Assembly (NCBI GenBank): GCA_902768795.1
Contig: CACXMS010000003.1
Location: 1 to 64,000, forward strand
Reading direction: 5' to 3'
From: an uncultured Eubacteriales bacterium
GTDB taxonomy: Bacteria; Bacillota; Clostridia; Christensenellales; CAG-138
Length of the DNA stretch: 64,000 nucleotides
Shown here: one piece after another, positions 12,835-27,398 of the stretch
Numbering within the stretch: the first letter of the stretch is position 1
Layout of the letters: every line of letters starts with the position of its first letter
Translations under genes and position numbers: made by a program
The notes under the pieces: generated by a model
The model's input: only the letters and a program-made list of their open reading frames with translations
Told to the model about the DNA's origin: nothing
Database searches by the model: none

Positions 12835-12846
12835 GCTGTTTCCTCC

Positions 12847-14394
12847 TCAGTATCCCTTGTACAGATCAATCATGCTGCCGTCGATCGCGTTGATCGAGAG
12901 GATCGGCGAATCATTCATGTATTGATAATGCGGCTCCTCGTATGTTTTGCGTGTTTTTATGTTTGTGCGCGTGATCACCGTCGTGCCGTAAAAGTTCCAC
13001 ACCGGAACGAGCAGCCCCGTATCAAACCGGTTCTTTTCCATCACGCGCTGTAAGCCGAGCGTGATGCGCGTAATCTCCATATGCATATCGGACGGATAAT
13101 CGTCCTCAACCACCTGCGATTCATCCAAAATGAGCCACGGCTTTTCCTCGATCCAGACCTGGCTTTTAAACCGTTCCACAATCTTATCGAACGGCAGCAG
13201 ATTCGACGCGGACAGCACGGTCTCCTTTACCCCCAGCGGCGCATACCACGCAAGCTCATACACGCCCTGCTCGTCGATACAGACGGAGATACTTTCGTAC
13301 ATCCATTGCGGCGCAAAGACCTGATCCTCGGCAGGGGTCCCGCGGGATCCCATCATCATGCCCAAAAAGGCGTCCCTGATGCCCGCTGTTTCACGGACGC
13401 AGTTGACGCGATAGCCGCATTGCCCGTCCTTTATATCCGGATAGCAGACGATCGAATCTGCCTTGACCTCCGGGAACCCCACGGACGCAAAGAACGCTTC
13501 CGTGTCCGCGATTGCCTGTGCGGGAGTGTAAGTGATAAACGGATATTCCCGAAGCTCAACGGGATTGTTCGGATCTCGGATCGCTATCCTTGGCGTATGC
13601 ACGCCCCCGTCTCCCTCTCCGCCGCTCAAGTCAGAGCGATCGTTCCAGACGGTTAGCAGCGCATCCTCGAGCCGGTGGCTGTTTCGTTCCTCCTGTCCCG
13701 GAATCGTCAGCTGAACGATCAGCCGGGGCTGATCGTCGCGCGAAGTCGCGTTAAAGCCGTAGCGCGTATAGGTTTTGCCGTCCGTCTCAAATTGCATCAC
13801 GCCGATCGTGCCGTCGCAAATGTCCTCCGAAAGCGTTTCCGGCGCGGTCCTCCAGCGCACCTTCAGTTTCTCGATCGTCTCCGGGATTGTCGCAAGCTCC
13901 TCCTCATCAAGCTCGGCGCGCAGTGCAGGGTCGTTCTGCTGATTTTCGAGCCATGCGATCGTATCGGCGATCTGCGATTTTGTCATAACATTGCTATTGT
14001 GGTACATCGTGCGCCCGCCTGTCAGCGCATTGAAGATGCGCGTGATCTGGTCCTGTGTAAACGTCCCGTGCTCCACACGGATGATCGGGATATCGGCGAC
14101 ATCCGGCACCTCGACCCGCGCGTCGATGTTCACCGTAAAATGTCCGTCCGCTTCGGTAACGGTATCGGAAAGCGTTTCCGGGATCGCATACCGTTCGCGG
14201 ATATGCGTCGCTTTTGGCAGCTCTCCTTTTGCGTCCGCTCCGCCCGCAAAGCCCACAACGTCGGAAGCGGGCGTCGCCGCCGCCTTTTCGAGCATCTCCT
14301 CGGTGTCCTTATGCGTGACAAATTCCTCCTCCGGCGTCGGAACGCAGGCGAGAAGCAGGGAAAGGGATAAGAGAATGATAAGGAATCGTTTCAT
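12847..14394 (-). CDS. Tandem paralogous lipoprotein 5 of 5 (DUF6034-like)
   Basis: This 515-residue lipoprotein has lipobox LLAC at residue 17, then VPTPEEE. The shared N-terminal block VNIDARVEVPDVADIPIIRVEHGTF lies near residues 95-120, and the shared C-terminal signature LLVPVWNFYG ... LSINAIDGSMIDLYKGY at the end. The middle has a Trp/Glu-rich helical insert unlike its siblings. AGGAGG precedes the ATG. It is the last lipoprotein before the ATPase gene, 12 bp apart. I associate the C-terminal signature with the family catalogued as DUF6034; function unknown. Confidence 0.75.
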   Translation of the reverse strand: MKRFLIILLSLSLLLACVPTPEEEFVTHKDTEEMLEKAAATPASDVVGFAGGADAKGELPKATHIRERYAIPETLSDTVTEADGHFTVNIDARVEVPDVADIPIIRVEHGTFTQDQITRIFNALTGGRTMYHNSNVMTKSQIADTIAWLENQQNDPALRAELDEEELATIPETIEKLKVRWRTAPETLSEDICDGTIGVMQFETDGKTYTRYGFNATSRDDQPRLIVQLTIPGQEERNSHRLEDALLTVWNDRSDLSGGEGDGGVHTPRIAIRDPNNPVELREYPFITYTPAQAIADTEAFFASVGFPEVKADSIVCYPDIKDGQCGYRVNCVRETAGIRDAFLGMMMGSRGTPAEDQVFAPQWMYESISVCIDEQGVYELAWYAPLGVKETVLSASNLLPFDKIVERFKSQVWIEEKPWLILDESQVVEDDYPSDMHMEITRITLGLQRVMEKNRFDTGLLVPVWNFYGTTVITRTNIKTRKTYEEPHYQYMNDSPILSINAIDGSMIDLYKGY

Positions 14395-14406
14395 TGTGTC
14401 CTCCTT

Positions 14407-15861
14407 TTAATATCCCGCGTTCCGGTCGATGATGCTGCCATCGATCGCGTTGACGGTTAAAATTGCGGTCGTTCCGTCGTAGCCGAAGCCCTCAAAGCCG
14501 GGCATGTTGTTGTAGTCGGTCAGATGCTCGACGCCGAAAAACGTCCAGCTCGGCACAAGGTACGCCTGCCGCGGCGCGTTCTGCTCCAGCACGCGGGTCA
14601 GCCCGAGCCGGATCTCCGTGATGCGGATCGACGGATTCTCGATCGTGATCCGGTCAAACGAACCGGCATACACGATCCCGAGCCGCTTTTCAAACACCGC
14701 GACAGCTTCTTCGAGCGGAAGCACCCTTACCGCGTCGGAGGAACATTCCAGGATCTCATACGGCGCTCCGTCATAGTAGAACGCCAGAACGCCCTGATCG
14801 TCGACGTAAACGCGCACACGCTCATACCGCCATTGCGGCGCGACGCCGTGTTCGGGATCGGCGTCCGAAGACGCATAGCTGTACAGATCGTTCGTATAGG
14901 TCACGTTAACGCCCGAAACCTGCCGCGTGAACAGGAATTCGTATGCCGCGTCGCACCGTCCGGCCTTTTCTGCCTCCGCGACATATTCGATCAGCGGCGC
15001 GATCCGCGCGTGCGTCAGCGTAAAGTCCGGCGAAAGCTGCAGCCCGTCCATCACGCTCTGCGCCTCGGCCCTTGCGTCCTCCATCGAGCGCTCGGGCGTC
15101 GTCACCCGGAACCGGCCCCGATCGATCATCGGCTGCGCGATCCGCAGCGGGTTTTGGAAGTTGTACGCGTTTTCAAAATGCGTTATCTCCTGAATGTTTC
15201 GGTAATACTCCACGGATTGCGTCGACATCATAACGTGAAAGATGGTTCCGATTTGGGAAATACCGCAGTAGCTCGACGTCCAGAAATCCGTTTCCTGCGG
15301 TTCGCTTCCGGACTCGACAAAGTGAAAATCCATTTCCACGGCCGGGTCGCGGTCGGAATAGACCGGCTCGGCAGGCGCTTCATCCGCCTCCTTCAGCACA
15401 TCCAGAATCGCCCGGTTGATCTCCTCCACCGAATTGTACTTGTCGAGGTCTCCGCTGTCGCGCCGCGCCATCAGACGGTTCGCGATGCCCTGATAATACG
15501 ATTTCGGGAACACGTCGATCGGCTTGCTGTCATTGCCGAGCACGTGCATCACGCGGCGCCGAAACTCCTGCGAAAACCCGCCCTGCCGGATATGAACCAG
15601 CGGGATTTCATTTGTCTGCGGCAGAACGACGTCCGCGTCGACGGTGACGGTCACCCCCGACCGTTCGATCGTAAACTCTTTTTCGACGTGCTTCGATTCC
15701 GGCACGCCGACGATCTCCTCCAGCGGCTCCTCGGGCAGATCCGAAAGCGCGATCTCAATCATCGTCCCCGTCTGCTTCGGCTTTACGACTTCCTCCTCCG
15801 GCGTCGGGACGCAGGCGGTGAGGATGAGCAGCATCAAAAATAGTGCAAGAATCCGTTTCAT
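14407..15861 (-). CDS. Tandem paralogous lipoprotein 4 of 5 (DUF6034-like)
   Basis: This 484-residue lipoprotein starts MKRILALFLMLLILTAC, then VPTPEEE. Shared blocks are VTVDADVVLPQTNEIPLVHIRQGGF near 75-100 and a C-terminus with YLVPSWTFFG ... LTVNAIDGSIIDRNAGY. GAGGAG with correct spacing selects the ATG at 15861 over an upstream in-frame ATG. It is 12 bp from the next gene and 10 bp from the previous. Paralogy to its four neighbours is visible only at the two ends; the central 250 residues are divergent. Confidence 0.75.
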   Translation of the reverse strand: MKRILALFLMLLILTACVPTPEEEVVKPKQTGTMIEIALSDLPEEPLEEIVGVPESKHVEKEFTIERSGVTVTVDADVVLPQTNEIPLVHIRQGGFSQEFRRRVMHVLGNDSKPIDVFPKSYYQGIANRLMARRDSGDLDKYNSVEEINRAILDVLKEADEAPAEPVYSDRDPAVEMDFHFVESGSEPQETDFWTSSYCGISQIGTIFHVMMSTQSVEYYRNIQEITHFENAYNFQNPLRIAQPMIDRGRFRVTTPERSMEDARAEAQSVMDGLQLSPDFTLTHARIAPLIEYVAEAEKAGRCDAAYEFLFTRQVSGVNVTYTNDLYSYASSDADPEHGVAPQWRYERVRVYVDDQGVLAFYYDGAPYEILECSSDAVRVLPLEEAVAVFEKRLGIVYAGSFDRITIENPSIRITEIRLGLTRVLEQNAPRQAYLVPSWTFFGVEHLTDYNNMPGFEGFGYDGTTAILTVNAIDGSIIDRNAGY

Positions 15862-15871
15862 GGGTTTCTCC

Positions 15872-17353
15872 TCAATACCCCGCGTAGGGGTCAATGACAG
15901 TACCGTCCACGGCGTTGATGACAACCAGTGGATTCAAAGTGTCGTAATTCCAAGTTTCAATCTCATTGGGCCAAAGTTCCTTCTGGTGCTCGTTGGGCGC
16001 ATCCGCCTGCAAAAAATACCACACGGGTACCAGCAGGCCTCCCTCCAGAACATTTTGCTCCATGATGTACAGAAGCCCGAGCCGCACGCCTGCCACCTCC
16101 AGCGTCCCGTTCTCCTCCCCGCGGAACCCGCGGTAACTATGCAGCCGGTTGATCTGCCGCTTGGCGATGGTCTCGATCTCCGAAAACGGCAGCAGGGTCG
16201 CGTTCTCGGTCACAACCTCAGTAACGGTCAGGGGGCTTCGCCATTCCAGCTTTCGGATGCCGTCCTCATTCACCGCGCCCATGATGTCCTCCTGATCCCA
16301 GTTCCGGCTCATGTCGGTAATCGGATCCCGGCTGCTCATGTGGAGATACCCCAGCCCCATTCCCGTAGCCGTGCCATGATAGGCGGGCATGAGCCGGATC
16401 ACGTATCCCCAATGAAGTTTGGTCCCGTCGGAACCGTAGGTATCGGAAGCGTTGTTGCCCCAAAGAATCTCCACAACCCGGGTCTTCACAAAGGGGTCCA
16501 GCACCGATTGAAGCATCTGAGCGGCTTCGTTGGGAGTCATGGTCGTACCCGCATGGGGCGTATCGTAATCGTCGGGGTCAATGCGTTCCATAAGGCCGTA
16601 ATCCCATGCTGCGCCCCACTCCCCTTCCCGGGCCATATCCACGGACCAATACGTGGGATACTCATCCCGGGCGAAGAAATAGACGCTGTCGCATTCGAGA
16701 GCGCTCCGATCCCAGGGACCTTTGACCAGTACCGTCTGCTTCATATCCGGTTCCGCCAGTCCATCCCAAACGGGATTGGGAATCGGTTCATCGTCCCGGA
16801 AATTGCGGTACTGCTCCTGGAGATTCTCCAGATTCTTCTGCCAACGGGGGATCAGCTCGTCCAACTCCTCCCGGTCGAAGTCCTCCAGCAGTTCCTTGTT
16901 GTTGTAGGGATCGCTGAGCGTGTTCATAAGATCGCCGATCTGTTTTTCAAGATCCTTCCGGGTCAGCTGATAGACGCTCTTATAGACCGTGTCCGTGTTC
17001 AGCAGTGCCTGTACGATGGCGAGATTCTCTGACGCCTTGAATCTCCGGGGCTCCACCCGGAGCAGAGGGAAGACATCTTCCGTCATGATGCGGATGGGTA
17101 CATCCGCGGTCACATGGATGTTCTCCACGTCAGTATAAAAGTCCCAGACGAGCCGCTCCGGCATCTGCTCCCGCACGGGTACGGGAGCCGCGGTTGGCTG
17201 CTCCTTCGTCCCCTTCGATGCTTCCGTGACATCTCCTATGGCCATTTCAATCATTTTTGCGCTGTTCTTTTGCCGCACCGCGTCCTCCTCCGGCGTCGGG
17301 ACGCAGGCGGTGAGGACCGTCAACAGCAGAAAAAAGATAAAAATTCGTTTCAA
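15872..17353 (-). CDS. Tandem paralogous lipoprotein 3 of 5, TTG start (DUF6034-like)
   Basis: This 493-residue lipoprotein has signal and lipobox FFLLLTVLTAC, then VPTPEED. The shared block VTADVPIRIMTEDVFPLLRVEPRRF lies near 80-105 and the C-terminal signature is LLVPVWYFLQ ... VVINAVDGTVIDPYAGY. It uses TTG as start with AAGGAA upstream, unlike the ATG starts and AGGAGG sites of its siblings. By eye its codon use differs from its neighbours (more GGG glycine and CCC/CCT proline, fewer GCG/CGC), suggesting a separate origin or recombination within the array. Confidence 0.72.
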   Translation of the reverse strand: MKRIFIFFLLLTVLTACVPTPEEDAVRQKNSAKMIEMAIGDVTEASKGTKEQPTAAPVPVREQMPERLVWDFYTDVENIHVTADVPIRIMTEDVFPLLRVEPRRFKASENLAIVQALLNTDTVYKSVYQLTRKDLEKQIGDLMNTLSDPYNNKELLEDFDREELDELIPRWQKNLENLQEQYRNFRDDEPIPNPVWDGLAEPDMKQTVLVKGPWDRSALECDSVYFFARDEYPTYWSVDMAREGEWGAAWDYGLMERIDPDDYDTPHAGTTMTPNEAAQMLQSVLDPFVKTRVVEILWGNNASDTYGSDGTKLHWGYVIRLMPAYHGTATGMGLGYLHMSSRDPITDMSRNWDQEDIMGAVNEDGIRKLEWRSPLTVTEVVTENATLLPFSEIETIAKRQINRLHSYRGFRGEENGTLEVAGVRLGLLYIMEQNVLEGGLLVPVWYFLQADAPNEHQKELWPNEIETWNYDTLNPLVVINAVDGTVIDPYAGY

Positions 17354-17371
17354 TGCAATTCGTTCCTTTCC

Positions 17372-18721
17372 TTAATTTGATTGCAGGAGTTTGCCGTCCG
17401 CAGCGTTGAGAATGAGCTGCGCGCCGCGGGTATGAAACAGGTTGCTCTCCGCGTCGTACCCCATAAAGAACCAGCAGGGAACCAGATCGAAGGTCGACAA
17501 CGAATCCCTGACCGGAACGAACTCATAGCCGAAGATGATCTCCGTGATCTCGACCGTAGGGTCGTCGCCGAAATACTCTCCCGCCGAGCGCAGAACGTCG
17601 ATATAGCTGTCGAACGCTTTTCGCGCCTCATCCAGCGAAATGACCGACGCGTTTTCGTTGACAATTTCCGAAACGACGACCGGATTTTGCCAGCGGAAGC
17701 TCCGAACGCCCTGCGCGTCCACCAGAAGGTCGATGTATTCCGGCGTCCATGTCGGCCGGTATTCCTGCTTGTCCGGTTCCGAATAGCCCATCTGCCACGC
17801 CTTGATCCAGTAATGCGGCTTCGGCATGCCGTTCACCGTTCGTGTGAAGAACAGCCGGTATGCGCCCGGATGTTCCTCTATCTGATGGACGACCATGTTA
17901 TGCCGAAACATGATTTCGGAATACACATGCCGCATTCCGGTAATGCCGAGCCGCGCCAGGAACGCGGTTGCTTTTTCGACCGCTTCCTGCTCCGAAAACG
18001 GCATCTGCTCCGTCCTGGGATCGGATGGATCGACGTCGCCGGTATAGGTTTGCTGTCCGGCCGGCGCGTACTCAAAGACGTAGCGCGGGAAATCGTCGCC
18101 GGTCTCCTGCATGGTCTGTATGCTGCCGACGGTTTCGCCGTCCTTCCGGAGCACGATGTTCAGATAGTTCTTTTTCCCGATTTTATTGACGTCAAACGGC
18201 TTGTCGCGGTTGATTTCGCTTTCCGGCTTTGCGTTGTTATAAGCGTCGATATAGTATTGCAGCGTTCCCTCGAGATAATCCAGCTCATTCGGATCGGTCT
18301 CGCCTTCGATCGCCTCCTGCGTGTTTTTCACACAACCGGCATAGTATTCGCGCGAAAACGGATCCTTCGGCTGCTCGCAAAGCGACGCGCCTTCGGCAAG
18401 CACATCAATCCACGCAAGAATCTGTTCCTTTGAAAACGTGCAGGTTTCCACCCGTACGATCGGGATGTTCCCGGGCATTGGCGCCGTCACATCCGCATGG
18501 ATCTTCACGGGAACGCCCCGCGGCGTTGTGTACTCCTCGTCGATACGCAGCCCGCCCGACGGTTCGTTCGCCTCGCCGGTCACGTTCTGCGGCCCGTCCG
18601 CCGTAGCTGCACCGACGTTTTCGTATGCGTCGGTTCGGTTGATGATCGGCTCCTCCTCCGGCGTAGGCACGCAGGCGAGAAAGAGGCAAAGCGACAGCAG
18701 TACAGGAATTATACGTTTCAT
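17372..18721 (-). CDS. Tandem paralogous lipoprotein 2 of 5, short C-terminus (DUF6034-like)
   Basis: At 449 residues this is the shortest of the five. Signal and lipobox are SLCLFLAC, then VPTPEEEPI. The block VKIHADVTAPMPGNIPIVRVETCTF lies near 75-100. The C-terminal signature is present but altered: DLVPCWFFMG ... LILNAADGKLLQSN, lacking the IIDxxAGY ending of its siblings. AGGAGG precedes the ATG. The missing tail suggests it no longer makes the contact that the shared ending provides, or simple 3' erosion. Confidence 0.74.
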   Translation of the reverse strand: MKRIIPVLLSLCLFLACVPTPEEEPIINRTDAYENVGAATADGPQNVTGEANEPSGGLRIDEEYTTPRGVPVKIHADVTAPMPGNIPIVRVETCTFSKEQILAWIDVLAEGASLCEQPKDPFSREYYAGCVKNTQEAIEGETDPNELDYLEGTLQYYIDAYNNAKPESEINRDKPFDVNKIGKKNYLNIVLRKDGETVGSIQTMQETGDDFPRYVFEYAPAGQQTYTGDVDPSDPRTEQMPFSEQEAVEKATAFLARLGITGMRHVYSEIMFRHNMVVHQIEEHPGAYRLFFTRTVNGMPKPHYWIKAWQMGYSEPDKQEYRPTWTPEYIDLLVDAQGVRSFRWQNPVVVSEIVNENASVISLDEARKAFDSYIDVLRSAGEYFGDDPTVEITEIIFGYEFVPVRDSLSTFDLVPCWFFMGYDAESNLFHTRGAQLILNAADGKLLQSN

Positions 18722-18731
18722 TTTGTCCTCC

Positions 18732-20204
18732 TCAATATCCGGCGTCGCGGTCTATGATGCTGCCGTCGATCGCGTTGACCGTCAGAAGCGACTGTCCGGA
18801 AAACCATGCCCTATGGCCCGGCAGATCGGAATCGCCGAACGCTTCGTTGTAGTCATAGCCCATAAAATCCCATACGGGCAAAAGATACCGCTCGTTTGGC
18901 GCGTCTTTCTTCTTTACTTTCATATAGGAAAGGCAGATGCGCTCGACGACCATCGTATACGACCATTCGCTGCCCTCGCCTTCGTCAAGATAGATCGAGC
19001 GGAAGATCTGCTTTTTGAAAATCTCCAGAATCCGGTCAAACGGCAGCAGCTCCACGTTTTCGTTCTCGGTGCGGACGTTCTCGACAATGTTGTACCAGTT
19101 CAGCGCGACGACCTTTCCGTTTCGCACGAGCACCTCCGCTTTTTCGGGCAGGACGGGATCGTCATACTCCTGCGAAACGCCCGCCGCCTGCAGCGCCGTG
19201 TCCGAACCGTGGTAAGCCGAGTACGGGTAGCACGGAATGCCCGCGACCGTGCGGATCAGCGATACCGAATACTCCTCCGGCGGAAAATCCGCCTGCGAAA
19301 GCCCCTCGTTTTTCAAAAAGAGATCGTTGTCAAACGTGATCGTTTCCGCCCTGAATTGCTCGCCGGTCATCCCGGCAAAGGTCGTTTCGGCAACGTCCAT
19401 TGCCGCCTGCTGCTCCGCCGTTTCGGGCGCGTGTCCGCCAAAGGCGTGCGCCGCGTTGTGCTCCTCATCATACAGCCACATCGATCCCTCGGAAAACGAA
19501 AGATACCGGTTGTTCGCATCCGCTAACACGGTCCGTTCGTCCGAAAAACTGCCGGTCCACGGTTCCATCGCCCCCGGTTCGGGCTGGTTGGCATATTCTT
19601 TCAGATACATCTGCAGATTCTGTTCCAGCACCCAGCGATGTCCCGCATAATCGAAGTTCTCACCGTAGGCCCGGTTGTCAAGATCCGCCAGCTCTTTCGT
19701 CATCTTTTTGATATTGCTCTCCCAACTGACCTTGTTGGCCAGCTCGCGGTTGTAGTTGTAATACGGCCCGTCCCCAAGCAGCAGCTTTGCGATGCGTTCG
19801 CGCTCCCCGGGCGTAAAGGTTTTGATCCGTACCGTAAAAACCGGTACCGCCGCTACGTTCGGGATCTCCACTCCGGCGTCGATCTGTACGTTCAGCTTCC
19901 CGCCGTAGACCTTGCCCGAAACCGCATCGGTCACGCGCTCCGGCGCGCCGAGCGCCGTTCGCAGCGTATTCGGCGCCGCGCCGTTTTCGGGAGCAGCCTG
20001 CAAGGGCGCTTCGCCCGACAGATCCCCTTCCGGCCGCGATTCGGGCTGTTCCGGCTCCACCGCGTAAATCTCGATCGGGCGCTTTTCGGCAATCATGCTC
20101 TCCAGCCGCCCTTCGGTCTTGTTCGCCACCACCTCTTCCGTCGGCGTCGGTACGCAGGCGAGAAGCAGGGAAAGGGATATGCAAAGAAGGATGATTCGTT
20201 TCAT
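18732..20204 (-). CDS. Tandem paralogous lipoprotein 1 of 5 (DUF6034-like)
   Basis: This 490-residue lipoprotein has lipobox SLLLAC, then VPTPTEEVV. The block LNVQIDAGVEIPNVAAVPVFTVRIKTF lies near 110-135 and the C-terminal signature is YLLPVWDFMGYDY ... LTVNAIDGSIIDRDAGY. A long acidic linker follows the lipid-modified cysteine. AAGGAG precedes the ATG. It is the first lipoprotein after the permease and is separated from it by a 169-bp gap containing stem-loop repeats, so its expression may be uncoupled from the permease. Confidence 0.75.
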   Translation of the reverse strand: MKRIILLCISLSLLLACVPTPTEEVVANKTEGRLESMIAEKRPIEIYAVEPEQPESRPEGDLSGEAPLQAAPENGAAPNTLRTALGAPERVTDAVSGKVYGGKLNVQIDAGVEIPNVAAVPVFTVRIKTFTPGERERIAKLLLGDGPYYNYNRELANKVSWESNIKKMTKELADLDNRAYGENFDYAGHRWVLEQNLQMYLKEYANQPEPGAMEPWTGSFSDERTVLADANNRYLSFSEGSMWLYDEEHNAAHAFGGHAPETAEQQAAMDVAETTFAGMTGEQFRAETITFDNDLFLKNEGLSQADFPPEEYSVSLIRTVAGIPCYPYSAYHGSDTALQAAGVSQEYDDPVLPEKAEVLVRNGKVVALNWYNIVENVRTENENVELLPFDRILEIFKKQIFRSIYLDEGEGSEWSYTMVVERICLSYMKVKKKDAPNERYLLPVWDFMGYDYNEAFGDSDLPGHRAWFSGQSLLTVNAIDGSIIDRDAGY

Positions 20205-20221
20205 GGGTTTCTCCTTTCTGC

Positions 20222-24978: not shown

Positions 24979-25053
24979 CCGATCGGCATATCCGTTTGGA
25001 AAATTGCAGAAAGAAGCGCGTCGGAGGAGGTTTGTCAAGGTGGTATTTCAAAG

Positions 25054-25079
25054 CACAGTCGGTTTTCGGCTGTGTTTTT
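25054..25079 (+). terminator. Terminator after the SDR gene, start of cassette 1
   Basis: An 8-bp stem (25054-25061 with 25067-25074, one G-U pair) with T5. The same arrangement (TTTGTCAA, terminator, promoter) recurs at about 25941-26023. Confidence 0.75.
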
Positions 25080-25082
25080 CCG

Positions 25083-25129
25083 TTGCGTAATGTTGAAATA
25101 TGTGCTAGAATAGCTCCGATAAATCGGAG
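25083..25129 (+). promoter_or_regulatory. Promoter plus dyad for the small membrane protein
   Basis: TTGCGT (25083-25088), 17-nt spacer, TAGAAT (25106-25111). A perfect dyad CTCCGAT-AA-ATCGGAG covers 25114-25129 at the expected transcription start, where a repressor could bind. The 2-nt centre is too small for an RNA hairpin loop, which favours a DNA operator. Confidence 0.65.
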
Positions 25130-25145
25130 TTTTGGAGGAAACACT

Positions 25146-25568
25146 TTGAATAAAGGAATACGAATTGTATACTACATCACAGTTGTAATCAGTGCTTTGG
25201 TAGGCCTATGGCATTTCTTTGTCCCATGGATGTTTCGGTGGTATGACTACCTTCCGATGCAATATGAGAACCTTATAGTTGGAATTGATTATACGAACTA
25301 TTGCTTTTCATTGTTACTGTTTGGTTTAAGCGTTATATTGATTTTGTTGGGTAAAAGGGCTTTGGCAATGAATCGTGAGGTGATTTATTTCTACCTTTTT
25401 CTTACGGTTGTTTGGATTTTCAGAGCATGTCTTGCAAGTTTCATTGAGCCATGGCCACTGCAGCCGATTCCAGCGGCTGCGATTGGACAGCTGATTGCTT
25501 CAGATGCATTAGCTATTATGATGATAGTTGTTAGTGTGCGTTTTATCAAAGAAATAAGAAGAGAATAG
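25146..25568 (+). CDS. Small four-helix membrane protein of unknown function, TTG start
   Basis: This 140-residue protein has four hydrophobic segments (about 8-28, 46-67, 78-98, 110-132) and a short basic tail KEIRRE. Translation most likely starts at TTG 25146, preceded at six bases by GGAGGA; no ATG is available. The gene is A+T-richer than the flanking genes and lies in a modular segment whose flanks are repeated around the following GH16 gene, so it is probably acquired. The conserved-looking segment IGLWHFFVPW-like (VGLWHFFVPWMF) is not one I can assign to a family. Confidence 0.65.
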   Translation: MNKGIRIVYYITVVISALVGLWHFFVPWMFRWYDYLPMQYENLIVGIDYTNYCFSLLLFGLSVILILLGKRALAMNREVIYFYLFLTVVWIFRACLASFIEPWPLQPIPAAAIGQLIASDALAIMMIVVSVRFIKEIRRE

Positions 25569-25690
25569 CAAATTCCTGTTTATTGGAATGAAACAGATTT
25601 GAAACCTTCCGGGAAACAATTTCTTTTCGGGAGGTTTTTGTTTGTAAACGCACGTCCCACCGCTGTATAGCGGTGAGTAAGTGCGCTCTT
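25569..25690 (+). repeat. 3' structured flank, copy 1 (terminator plus double hairpin)
   Basis: It contains an ATTCC/GGAAT dyad, a terminator (25603-25611 with 25628-25636, then T5) and a nested hairpin with outer stem 25649-25653/25681-25685 and inner stem 25658-25663/25670-25675. The same order and sequence recur after the GH16 gene at 27012-27146, with compensating changes in the terminator stem. Confidence 0.75.
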
Positions 25691-25700
25691 CAAGAAAAAG

Positions 25701-25796
25701 AATGTCATCCTGAGCTGAAAGCGAACAATCTCTGAACGCTGTATTGCTTTTCCGTTCTGAGATCCTTCGTCGCTTCGCTTCTCAGGATGACACATT
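25701..25796. repeat. MITE-like inverted repeat (GTCATCCTGAG family)
   Basis: Terminal inverted repeats AATGTCATCCTGAG (25701-25714) and CTCAGGATGACACATT (25781-25796) enclose about 65 nt that include GAGATCCTTCGTCGCTTCGC. The TGTCATCCTGAG...GATCCTTCG motif is a dispersed noncoding repeat common in gut Clostridia and other bacteria. No coding potential. Confidence 0.7.
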
Positions 25797-25957
25797 CGGT
25801 TGTAGTTCTTTTACCTGCCGAGAGAATAGCTCCTTTCCGATAGCTGTTATCATTCATTTACCGCAGAAAGATCATCACGCAGCTATTCTGTGGTAGCGGT
25901 TGAAAACCACCCTTTAGAGAATAGCTCTTCAGAGGCTGTTTGTCAAAGGGAATTTTC
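25797..25957. other. Noncoding spacer between cassette 1 and cassette 2
   Basis: No ORF or RNA gene is recognisable. It contains AGAATAGCT/AGCTATTCT inverted pieces and the segment ACCCTTTAGAGAAT (25909-25922), of which a near copy lies at 27336-27350 after the GH16 cassette. Confidence 0.5.
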
Positions 25958-25991
25958 AAAAGTACAGTCGATTTCGGTCGTCTGTACTTTT
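25958..25991 (+). terminator. Terminator at the start of cassette 2
   Basis: A 10-bp stem AAAAGTACAG/CTGTACTTTT (25958-25967, 25982-25991). It occupies the position of the 25054-25079 terminator in cassette 1. Confidence 0.65.
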
Positions 25992-25994
25992 TTG

Positions 25995-26023
25995 TTGTAT
26001 CTTATTGGAAATCATGATAGAAT
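25995..26023 (+). promoter_or_regulatory. Promoter for the GH16 gene
   Basis: TTGTAT (25995-26000), 17-nt spacer, TAGAAT (26018-26023). It has the same -10 and spacing as the cassette 1 promoter; the dyad after it is only partly kept (CGACAAATCGG). Confidence 0.7.
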
Positions 26024-26081
26024 CAATACGACAAATCGGGATTTATAAAACAGTAAATATTGGCAAAAGGAAGATTTTGTA

Positions 26082-27011
26082 ATGACATTACCTGTTTTTT
26101 TACTAAGAATTATTGCTTTCTTTCAGGCTCTGATTTCATTTATAACTTACGGCAGCTGGACCAGCGAGATTACCTACCCCGTTAAACCGGTTATAATCCC
26201 CGCGCCCGAAAACCCCGCTTCACTTGACCTTGACGGCTTTACGCTTGTATGGGAGGACGAGTTCGACGGTAACGCGGTTGATTCCTCAAAATGGACCGGT
26301 TACAAATGCTCGGCCGAAAAATCAAAAACGCGTATGGGCTGCTGGTGGAATACCGATATGGCTTCGGTCAGAGACGGCAATCTGCATATTCATACAAAAT
26401 ATTATGACAAGGGATACAAGGGCGGAAGGCGCGGATGGTACAGTTGCGGACTCTGCACAGACGGTCTTTTTGATCAGACCTACGGGTATTTTGAAATACG
26501 CTGTATTCTTCCGAAAGGTATCGGCTCCTGGTCAGCCTTCTGGATGATGCCCCACAATATCAATGACTCAATCGGAAACGGCGGCACCGACGGCGCGGAA
26601 ATCGACATCTGCGAGGCTGCTTATTACCGTTATAAACTCAGCGACAATGTGAATGTTGTTTCTTCCACAATTCACTATGACGCTTACGGCTCCGAGCACA
26701 GGCAAAAAACAGCCTGCACTCCGTTTATTGAGAACAACGACCCCTATGAAGAATACAATACATACGGCGTTGAGTGGAACGATAAAGAGTATATATTTTA
26801 TATCAACGGCGTTGAGACCGGCCGCACGGATTTCGGCGGGACTTCAAAAGTGCCGGAGTATATGATAATAGACTGCAATGTAAACGGAATGAAAGGGTTC
26901 CCGCTCAACGGCTGGGTCGGCGACGCTCTTACCTTTGATTCCGAAGCGCCAACAGACTTTATTGTTGATTATGTAAGGGTGTATCAGTATAATTCTTTGC
27001 CCGGACAGTAA
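26082..27011 (+). CDS. Secreted GH16-family beta-glucanase
   Basis: This 309-residue enzyme has an N-terminal hydrophobic segment (1-23, signal or anchor) and one glycoside hydrolase family 16 domain. The catalytic signature EIDICE (Glu173 nucleophile, Asp175, Glu178 acid/base) is intact, with upstream LVWEDEFDG and downstream YGVEWNDKEYIFYING and DYVRVYQY, all typical of endo-beta-1,3(4)-glucanases. There is no carbohydrate-binding module. Composition is lower in G+C and codon use differs from the surrounding chromosome, pointing to horizontal acquisition. Likely role: degradation of plant or fungal beta-glucans. Confidence 0.92.
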   Translation: MTLPVFLLRIIAFFQALISFITYGSWTSEITYPVKPVIIPAPENPASLDLDGFTLVWEDEFDGNAVDSSKWTGYKCSAEKSKTRMGCWWNTDMASVRDGNLHIHTKYYDKGYKGGRRGWYSCGLCTDGLFDQTYGYFEIRCILPKGIGSWSAFWMMPHNINDSIGNGGTDGAEIDICEAAYYRYKLSDNVNVVSSTIHYDAYGSEHRQKTACTPFIENNDPYEEYNTYGVEWNDKEYIFYINGVETGRTDFGGTSKVPEYMIIDCNVNGMKGFPLNGWVGDALTFDSEAPTDFIVDYVRVYQYNSLPGQ

Positions 27012-27146
27012 GATTGAACCCGGCAAATTCCGGTTTGTCGGAATGAAACGGATTTGAACCTTCCGGGAAGTACTTCTTTCTCGGAAGGTTTTTGTTTGCC
27101 TAAAGCGCACGTATCACCGCCGCATGGCGGTGTATAAGTGCGCTCT
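27012..27146 (+). repeat. 3' structured flank, copy 2
   Basis: The order and much of the sequence match 25569-25690: an ATTCCG/CGGAAT dyad, a terminator with a fully paired 9-bp stem (27057-27065 with 27082-27090), then a double hairpin with outer stem 27105-27110/27138-27143 and inner stem 27115-27121/27126-27132. Confidence 0.75.
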
Positions 27147-27158
27147 TATGAAAAAAAG

Positions 27159-27273
27159 AGGCTTCCCCTTGAGGGGAAGCTGGCAACGAGGTTGACTGAT
27201 GAGGTGTTGCTTGCGCGAATCCGACACCTCATCCGCCTCGTTCCTCGGCACCTTCCCCTCAAGGGGAAGGCTT
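27159..27273. repeat. MITE-like inverted repeat (CTTCCCCTTGAGGGGAAG family)
   Basis: Two arms of about 49 bp (27159-27207 and 27225-27273) are imperfect inverted copies, each starting with a small CTTCCCCTTGAGGGGAAG hairpin and ending GATGAGGTGT. It is noncoding and resembles a dispersed repeat common in gut Firmicutes. Confidence 0.7.
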
Positions 27274-27398
27274 TTGCGACAGCAAAAGACGGAGGGATTA
27301 TCGTATTCCCTCCGCCGGATTATACTATTTCAAACCGCCCTTTAGAGAATCGCACTTCGGACGCGCTCCTTTCTGTTCTGCAACAGGTGATGCCAAAC
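27274..27398. other. Noncoding gap at the end of the accessory patch
   Basis: No gene seen. It holds the short inverted CTTTTGC/GCAAAAG, a GGAGGGA...TCCCTCC pair (27290-27315) that could form a hairpin, and the second copy of CCCTTTAGAGAAT. The ROK kinase stop codon follows at 27399. Confidence 0.5.

Follow-up and report, generated by a model that had tools for sequence, protein, structure and literature searches.

Tandem single-gene cassettes in a gut Clostridia genome appear to be miniature mobilizable elements with a putative origin of transfer

The stretch of DNA analysed here (64,000 nucleotides of contig CACXMS010000003.1, assembly GCA_902768795.1, from an uncultured Eubacteriales bacterium of the Christensenellales; hereafter the window) holds a tandem of two non-autonomous cassettes at positions 25023-27359. 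These units appear to be mobile cassettes that spread between gut bacteria with the enzymes of larger mobile elements. With a probability of roughly three in four, the array consists of two miniature non-autonomous integrative mobilizable elements (IMEs), each of which combines a single insulated gene with two attachment (att) half-sites and an origin of transfer (oriT). The parts follow the same order in both cassettes. Upstream of the gene lie the left end, an insulating T-run hairpin, a promoter with a TAGAAT box and an inner site; downstream of it come an inverted counterpart of the inner site, the CCTTCCG terminator, the double hairpin, filler repeats and finally the right end. A sequence-only reading of this DNA had described two genes between common flanks, and both genes and flanks were found where it had placed them, including TTTGTCAA, a short terminator and a TAGAAT box at 17-nt spacing before each gene. 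The two promoters are read by eye, both being absent from the matches of a simple promoter scan (their -35 boxes are weak). Two features had escaped that reading: the 5' TTTGTCAA and the 3' CCCTTTAGAGAAT form one terminal inverted repeat pair, and the array sits inside a host terminator.

Cassette ends, movement and insertion target

The left ends have the form ..TTTGTCAA..TTTCAAA, with TTTGTCAA at about 25031 and 25939, and the right ends the form CC.CCCTTTAGAGAAT.., with CCCTTTAGAGAAT present twice; read inwards, a right end is an inverted copy of a left end. Matrices built from the ends of units in other genomes, which replaced a degenerate-pattern search for both ends that gave few matches across the genus, give the left ends of both window units 38-41 bits and the right ends 35-50 bits, compared with 15.0 and 10.7 bits for the best of 50 shuffled windows. 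A scan of the 64-kb window with both matrices found no other end near those scores.

Movement has been traced through a 1.24-kb cassette carrying a GNAT gene, which occurs at unrelated sites in seven genomes, one of them of another genus (the assemblies are drafts, often metagenomic, and taxon names are those on the records). Copies are 98.6-99.6% identical to the reference copy in five of six comparisons and 93.5% in the sixth, where the copy is cut by a contig end, and the flanks present around them are 23-50% identical. Judged from these alignments, it is the whole cassette that moves as one unit.

The insertion target was studied at 25 de-duplicated sites with both ends, the window tandem being counted twice with each outer flank paired with the inner junction. 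At these sites the own flanks fold at a mean of -15.6 kcal/mol, against -10.9 kcal/mol for mismatched flanks (permutation p 5e-5), and the left insertion core is usually TTCR, the right one CTTC. When joined, the window flanks (25008-25022 and 27360-27374) pair to form a stem with a TTCG loop, with a folding energy of -26.4 kcal/mol. The cassettes are inserted in the loop of host Rho-independent terminators. An empty version of such a site has been identified for a cassette in genome G016, whose gene junction is uninterrupted in seven genomes and bears a terminator-like hairpin; G010 reads AAAAGGAAGTC-loop-GACTTCCTTTTTT where G016 reads AAAAAAAGGAGTC-TTCG-cassette-TTCG-GACTCCTTTTT. With the joined window flanks as query, an uninterrupted gene pair was found in G005 only (L233), and since its intergenic region is too strongly diverged to place the exact target, the clean empty site is taken from G016. 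With an equivalent query for the L054 site, matches running across the join were obtained in G006 and G011. The junction of the G016 cassette holds other insertions of 0.2-3.4 kb in further genomes (L265-L271), with no recognised cassette parts, and is perhaps a hot spot. Excision and transfer of the cassettes are inferred.

The double hairpin as a putative origin of transfer

A recombinase acting at the double hairpin had been suggested by the sequence-only reading. An oriT cut by a relaxase is the better reading of the hairpin, and the two cassette ends are the more likely sites of recombinase action. The other part of that proposal, single genes acquired or swapped between conserved flanks, holds: one frame encloses at least 23 unlinked main open reading frames (ORFs). 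The double hairpin fits an oriT of the MOBQ type, in which an inverted repeat is followed by the predicted cut TAAGTGCG/C. The nic site of RSF1010, given as TAAGTGCG/CCCT in an excerpt of PMC4814116, is equal to that of the cassettes.

An exact search of 84,980 species genomes with the 3' arm of the oriT returned 98 stretches, in one of which the arm lies about 275 bp from a gene for a MobA/MobL-like relaxase. Relatives of this protein led to a relaxase of the genus that lies beside a long form of the hairpin and belongs to MobA_MobL/MobQ (PF03389, NF041496). This relaxase occurs in four of the 23 genomes of the genus; of its five matches, one is a short fragment. The hairpin with the TAAGTGCGC site adjoins the gene in all four full or long copies, there in the form CACC..GGTG-(TA/AG)-TAAGTGCGCCCTT, and is also found at two other relaxase loci, L091 and L148. 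Throughout these six relaxase-linked sites the outer CACC/GGTG is fixed, and the inner arms vary yet stay complementary. In all five MobQ plasmids examined, TAAGTGCGCCCTT lies upstream of mobQ on the other strand, preceded in each by an inverted repeat that is weak in one; a plasmid search with the oriT alone gave no match. A scan of viral contigs had a single match to the oriT arm, on one IMG/VR contig (L243).

A candidate helper element

A 13.5-kb element in G016 (G016:C7, 28.1-41.6 kb) lies between ends of the cassette type and in the same kind of target, between the halves of a terminator stem. It encodes a large serine recombinase (PF00239, PF07508, PF13408, PF14287), TnpV (PF14198, "transposon-encoded"), a gene of Tn4451, and a relaxase above the NCBIfam NF041496 MobQ cut-off, together with an oriT and cargo (DUF6034 proteins, regulators). 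The large serine recombinase and TnpV agree with the Tn4451 family, and the relaxase is not of the MobV type expected there. This Tn4451-like mobilizable transposon is likely the helper or parent of the cassettes. Two relatives of its recombinase, in G019 (96%) and G007:C18 (68%), have one matching end each, with the other end beyond the contig, and seven loci with more distant recombinases have none. This pattern suggests that the cassette ends are half-sites of the G016 recombinase.

The cassettes themselves have no recombinase among their ORFs, and so lack the integrase of an IME, and no relaxase; the IME feature that they do possess is the MobQ-type oriT, predicted in its function. Sharing their ends with a complete element that has genes for a recombinase and a relaxase, they would correspond to cis-mobilizable elements (CIMEs) with an oriT.

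As a separate observation, positions 12841-20217 of the window contain a tandem of about five related lipoprotein-like genes, one starting MKRIILLCISLSLLLACVPTPTEE, and the two DUF6034 cargo proteins of the G016 element have a start similar to theirs.

Structure of the window array

The features of the array are listed in Table 1. The two cargo genes have a GC content of 38% and 47%, against 57% for the window. Their coding sequences are unrelated, as had been noted: one encodes a GH16 protein (PF00722) and the other a 140-aa protein that matches nothing in Pfam, NCBIfam or PADLOC. The shared 3' module is also real, "near-identical" being slightly too strong for an ungapped identity of 78-83%. 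The MITE-like stretches (MITE, miniature inverted-repeat transposable element), taken earlier as one common repeat, are different repeats in the two units.

Table 1. Features of the cassette array and its borders in the window.
Feature	Position	Strand	Remark
Host terminator, 5' half (AGAAAGAAGCGCGTC)	25008-25022	+	array inserted here; pairs with 27360-27374
Left end, cassette 1 (putative att half-site / terminal inverted repeat)	25023-25056	+	38.2 bits, matrix from other genomes
Insulating terminator, cassette 1	25052-25079	+	hairpin and T-run; position constant in frames with different cargo
Promoter, cassette 1, TTGCGT-17-TAGAAT (TTGCGT 25083, TAGAAT 25106)	25083-25111	+	-10 region conserved, 16 frames
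Inner site 5' of gene 1 (GATAAATCGGAGTTTT)	25118-25133	+	5' frame conservation stops here
Cargo gene 1, 140-aa putative membrane protein	25146-25568	+	ORF, listed within longer frame
Inner site 3' of gene 1 (AAATTCC..GGAAT)	25570-25589	+	3' frame conservation begins here
CCTTCCG terminator, cassette 1	25601-25638	+	
Putative oriT, cassette 1 (double hairpin)	25648-25686	+	predicted nic TAAGTGCG/C between 25685 and 25686
MITE-like filler repeats, cassette 1, oriT to right end	25690-25901	+	
Right end, cassette 1 (putative att half-site / terminal inverted repeat)	25902-25930	+	abuts cassette 2; matrix 50.1 bits
Left end, cassette 2	25931-25964	+	matrix 40.8 bits
Insulating terminator, cassette 2	25958-25993	+	
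Promoter, cassette 2, TTGTAT-17-TAGAAT (TTGTAT 25995, TAGAAT 26018)	25995-26023	+	
Inner site 5' of gene 2 (GACAAATCGGGATTT)	26030-26044	+	
Cargo gene 2, GH16 family glycosidase, 309 aa	26082-27011	+	PF00722, E 2.7e-13
Inner site 3' of gene 2 (AAATTCCGGTTTGTCGGAAT)	27025-27044	+	
CCTTCCG terminator, cassette 2	27056-27091	+	
Putative oriT, cassette 2 (double hairpin)	27105-27143	+	predicted nic TAAGTGCG/C between 27142 and 27143
Palindromic MITE-like filler, cassette 2	27156-27275	+	inverted arms 52 nt, 77% complementary
Right end, cassette 2	27330-27359	+	matrix 34.8 bits
Host terminator, 3' half (GACGCGCTCCTTTCT)	27360-27374	+	pairs with 25008-25022

Distribution, cargo and gene exchange

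The 3' module occurs at seven places in the 1.9-Mb source genome and in 22 of 101 genomes, comprising 21 of the 23 of the genus (source genome included) and one of 78 others. The genes beside it differ, as far as contigs reach. Units were gathered via the 3' module or the oriT, so that cassettes with neither have been missed; among the 68 oriT-like matches, some are duplicates because loci overlap, and at least one (L064 +) is false. Units bounded by a left end carry at least 23 main-ORF clusters without mutual BLASTP link at 1e-8, by our count, of which about seven are distant GNATs. A Pfam scan of 23 cargo proteins of the genus identified seven GNAT acetyltransferases, the others including phosphorylases, a family 28 glycosyltransferase, a beta-lactamase-fold hydrolase, helix-turn-helix (HTH), histidine phosphatase, ASCH, ion channel and Imm26 proteins, and some without a match. 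Unit size is mostly about 0.9-1.6 kb; a few units carry two genes or a reversed gene, and three (L062-L064) are gene-less, with about 88 bp from left end to oriT. In L022 (G000:C4) a second right end lies 58 bp beyond the first, perhaps a remnant of another unit.

The conserved parts were delimited in alignments that kept a single frame from each cargo cluster in which the anchor motif was present (16 and 19 frames). On the 5' side, frame conservation extends through GACAAATCGGGATTT; on the 3' side, the frame begins abruptly at its inverted counterpart, AAATTCCGGTTTGTC, the columns before it being near random; the short inner inverted sequences that flank the gene thus belong to the frame and the gene does not. 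The stop codon lies within the 3' inner site in L032, L051, L060 and L065. Four loci with the same cargo (L022, L040, L042, L059) are identical up to TAAGTGCGCTCTT and then have different right-hand modules, the breakpoint being at or just past the nic. The inner inverted sites and the nic region are read as two exchange points on the basis of these alignments, and homologous recombination between frames could be the source of both patterns. A bolder idea, to which we give clearly less than even odds, is a cassette system made up of conjugation parts and separate from integrons, in which genes would be loaded into oriT-att cassettes at ACAAATCGGGATTT / AAATTCCGGTTTGT and a relaxase would shuffle right-hand modules at the nic.

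The oriT is not confined to this type of cassette. The 98 stretches contain 99 oriT matches, assigned by patterns to this type (27), to a second type (39) or to neither (33). The second type has the left end AGAACATTTGTCAAGGGGGATTTCACC, the right end GTGAAACCACCCTTTACACAATACATC and one gene pointing to the left end; 24 of its units yield 21 unrelated cargo clusters, and its records are those of Oscillospiraceae, Anaerotruncus, Pseudoflavonifractor, Lawsonibacter and others. Some of these cassettes lie, by eye, inside other serine recombinase genes, and very similar ones are apparently so placed in L106, L143 and L173. A third repeat type with the same oriT arm (L094, L104, L115, L127, L131, L138, L144, L156) has a GCCGATATGGATTTGATTCCGTATCGGC-like hairpin before the arm and a CCTGATAGTTTTTAGTGATATGCTGTC-like sequence after it.

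Proposed mechanism and alternative explanations

Several observations weigh against mobilization of the cassettes as proposed. The source genome (90% complete) has no match to a MobQ relaxase or to a coupling protein of a type IV secretion system (T4SS), and its serine recombinases are only distant (37% and 29%), so that it could not now mobilise the cassettes alone; within the genus, a coupling-protein match was obtained in only three of 23 genomes. Seven loci with more distant serine recombinases (at most 61%) have no cassette ends, several of these stretches being short, and because of them the link between ends and recombinase rests on three elements, two of which are seen at one end. About one third of the 25 insertion sites fold without a clear terminator, several with a different repeat as flank. 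In the L027/L082 cassette other, apparently chromosomal sequence stands directly after the oriT core TCTTC; a right end was not found, and the edge of the oriT looks as though it had taken that role.

The rarity of helper relaxase and T4SS genes in the genus would agree with cassettes that transpose within a genome only and cross species by chance with larger elements, their inherited oriT unused. This is thought unlikely, though it keeps some weight: nic and hairpin have been retained in cassettes that are otherwise free to vary in their right-hand parts, and another genus has a cassette that is almost identical. Somewhat less credence is given to a DDE transposase as the mover, which would make the units mobile insertion cassettes or MITEs and the oriT a passenger repeat. 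Terminal inverted repeats, a short duplicated core and gene-less versions (L062-L064) are all in keeping with such elements, but the sole full-length element bounded by these ends encodes a serine recombinase and no recognised transposase; in the loci read, where no dedicated transposase search was made, no DDE-transposase element with these ends was seen. That the oriT is found in all collected units is no independent evidence against this rival, because units were found through the oriT or the module surrounding it. An ISL3-like transposase, a first guess from the left end, was given up, no such element having been seen.

The structured hairpin downstream of single genes might also be an integron-like attC site or an RNA terminator only, which is highly improbable given that the same site, of a known nic type, stands beside MobQ relaxase genes and that a separate terminator precedes it; the integron attC was dropped once the hairpin had been found beside MobQ genes. 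Hardly credible at all is a local duplication or an ordinary dispersed repeat beside random genes, the two alternatives that the sequence-only reading had itself named. The window units are indeed adjacent and have flanks in common, but the 3' module lies at seven places in the genome, and a mere repeat beside random genes is contradicted because the gene sits inside the moving unit.

For mobilizable cassettes the following cycle can be envisaged from sequence. The large serine recombinase of the helper would excise the cassette as a circle through its ends, and the helper's MobQ relaxase, together with a co-resident conjugation apparatus, would nick the oriT at TAAGTGCG/C and send one strand to a neighbour. 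There the circle would be inserted, presumably by the recombinase, into the loop of a Rho-independent terminator, the site seen in the genomes, leaving it little damaged. With its own promoter and two terminators, the gene may be expressed independently of the site. Repeated insertion at the same core would give rise to tandem arrays like that of the window, and, following the patterns seen in the alignments, the inner inverted sites would serve for the exchange of genes and the nic or its vicinity for that of right-hand modules.

Relation to known systems and significance

The presumed parent in G016 resembles the Tn4451/Tn4453 family in its large serine recombinase, TnpV, relaxase and oriT. 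Excerpts of PMC5704250 describe Tn4451 as having low target specificity, a 2-bp recombination core and a MobV relaxase, whereas that of the G016 element is MobQ; the cassettes differ from Tn4451 in lacking recombinase and relaxase and in carrying, as a rule, one gene. With CIMEs and iOriT elements, as presented in excerpts of PMC5704250 and PMC11389934, they share retained att ends, lost transfer genes and tandem accretion. Those are individual decayed islands, in contrast to a large uniform cassette family with one insulated, exchanged gene each. Single genes, a varied and GNAT-rich cargo, tandem units and mobilisation in trans recall integron cassettes and clusters of attC sites lacking integron integrases (CALIN; excerpt of PMC11389934), but the present cassettes have their own promoter and terminators, two ends and an oriT instead of attC, and the model needs no integron integrase. 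MITEs and mobile insertion cassettes are alike in being non-autonomous, with terminal inverted repeats and gene-less versions, and differ in that the parent here is a serine-recombinase element with an oriT, not an insertion sequence. The use of a copied oriT in trans has parallels in staphylococcal plasmids (PMC4652767) and genomic islands; the carriers of the copies in those cases are plasmids or large islands, and in the present case cassettes with a single gene.

No description of single-gene oriT cassettes was found in the open-licence literature, as covered by titles and the beginnings of abstracts. Integrons are the textbook route by which bacteria trade single genes. If the reading is true, gut Clostridia would have a second route, in which one expressed gene is carried per conjugative move with almost no DNA of the cassette's own, and in which landing would do little harm at the site. 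The cassettes would add a further layer of hitch-hiking, as hitchers of a hitcher, and would provide small units with which to test what oriT copies contribute to chromosomal gene flow. A 22-base pattern suffices to find the family in genomes, and such cassettes could account for single-gene differences among related gut bacteria.

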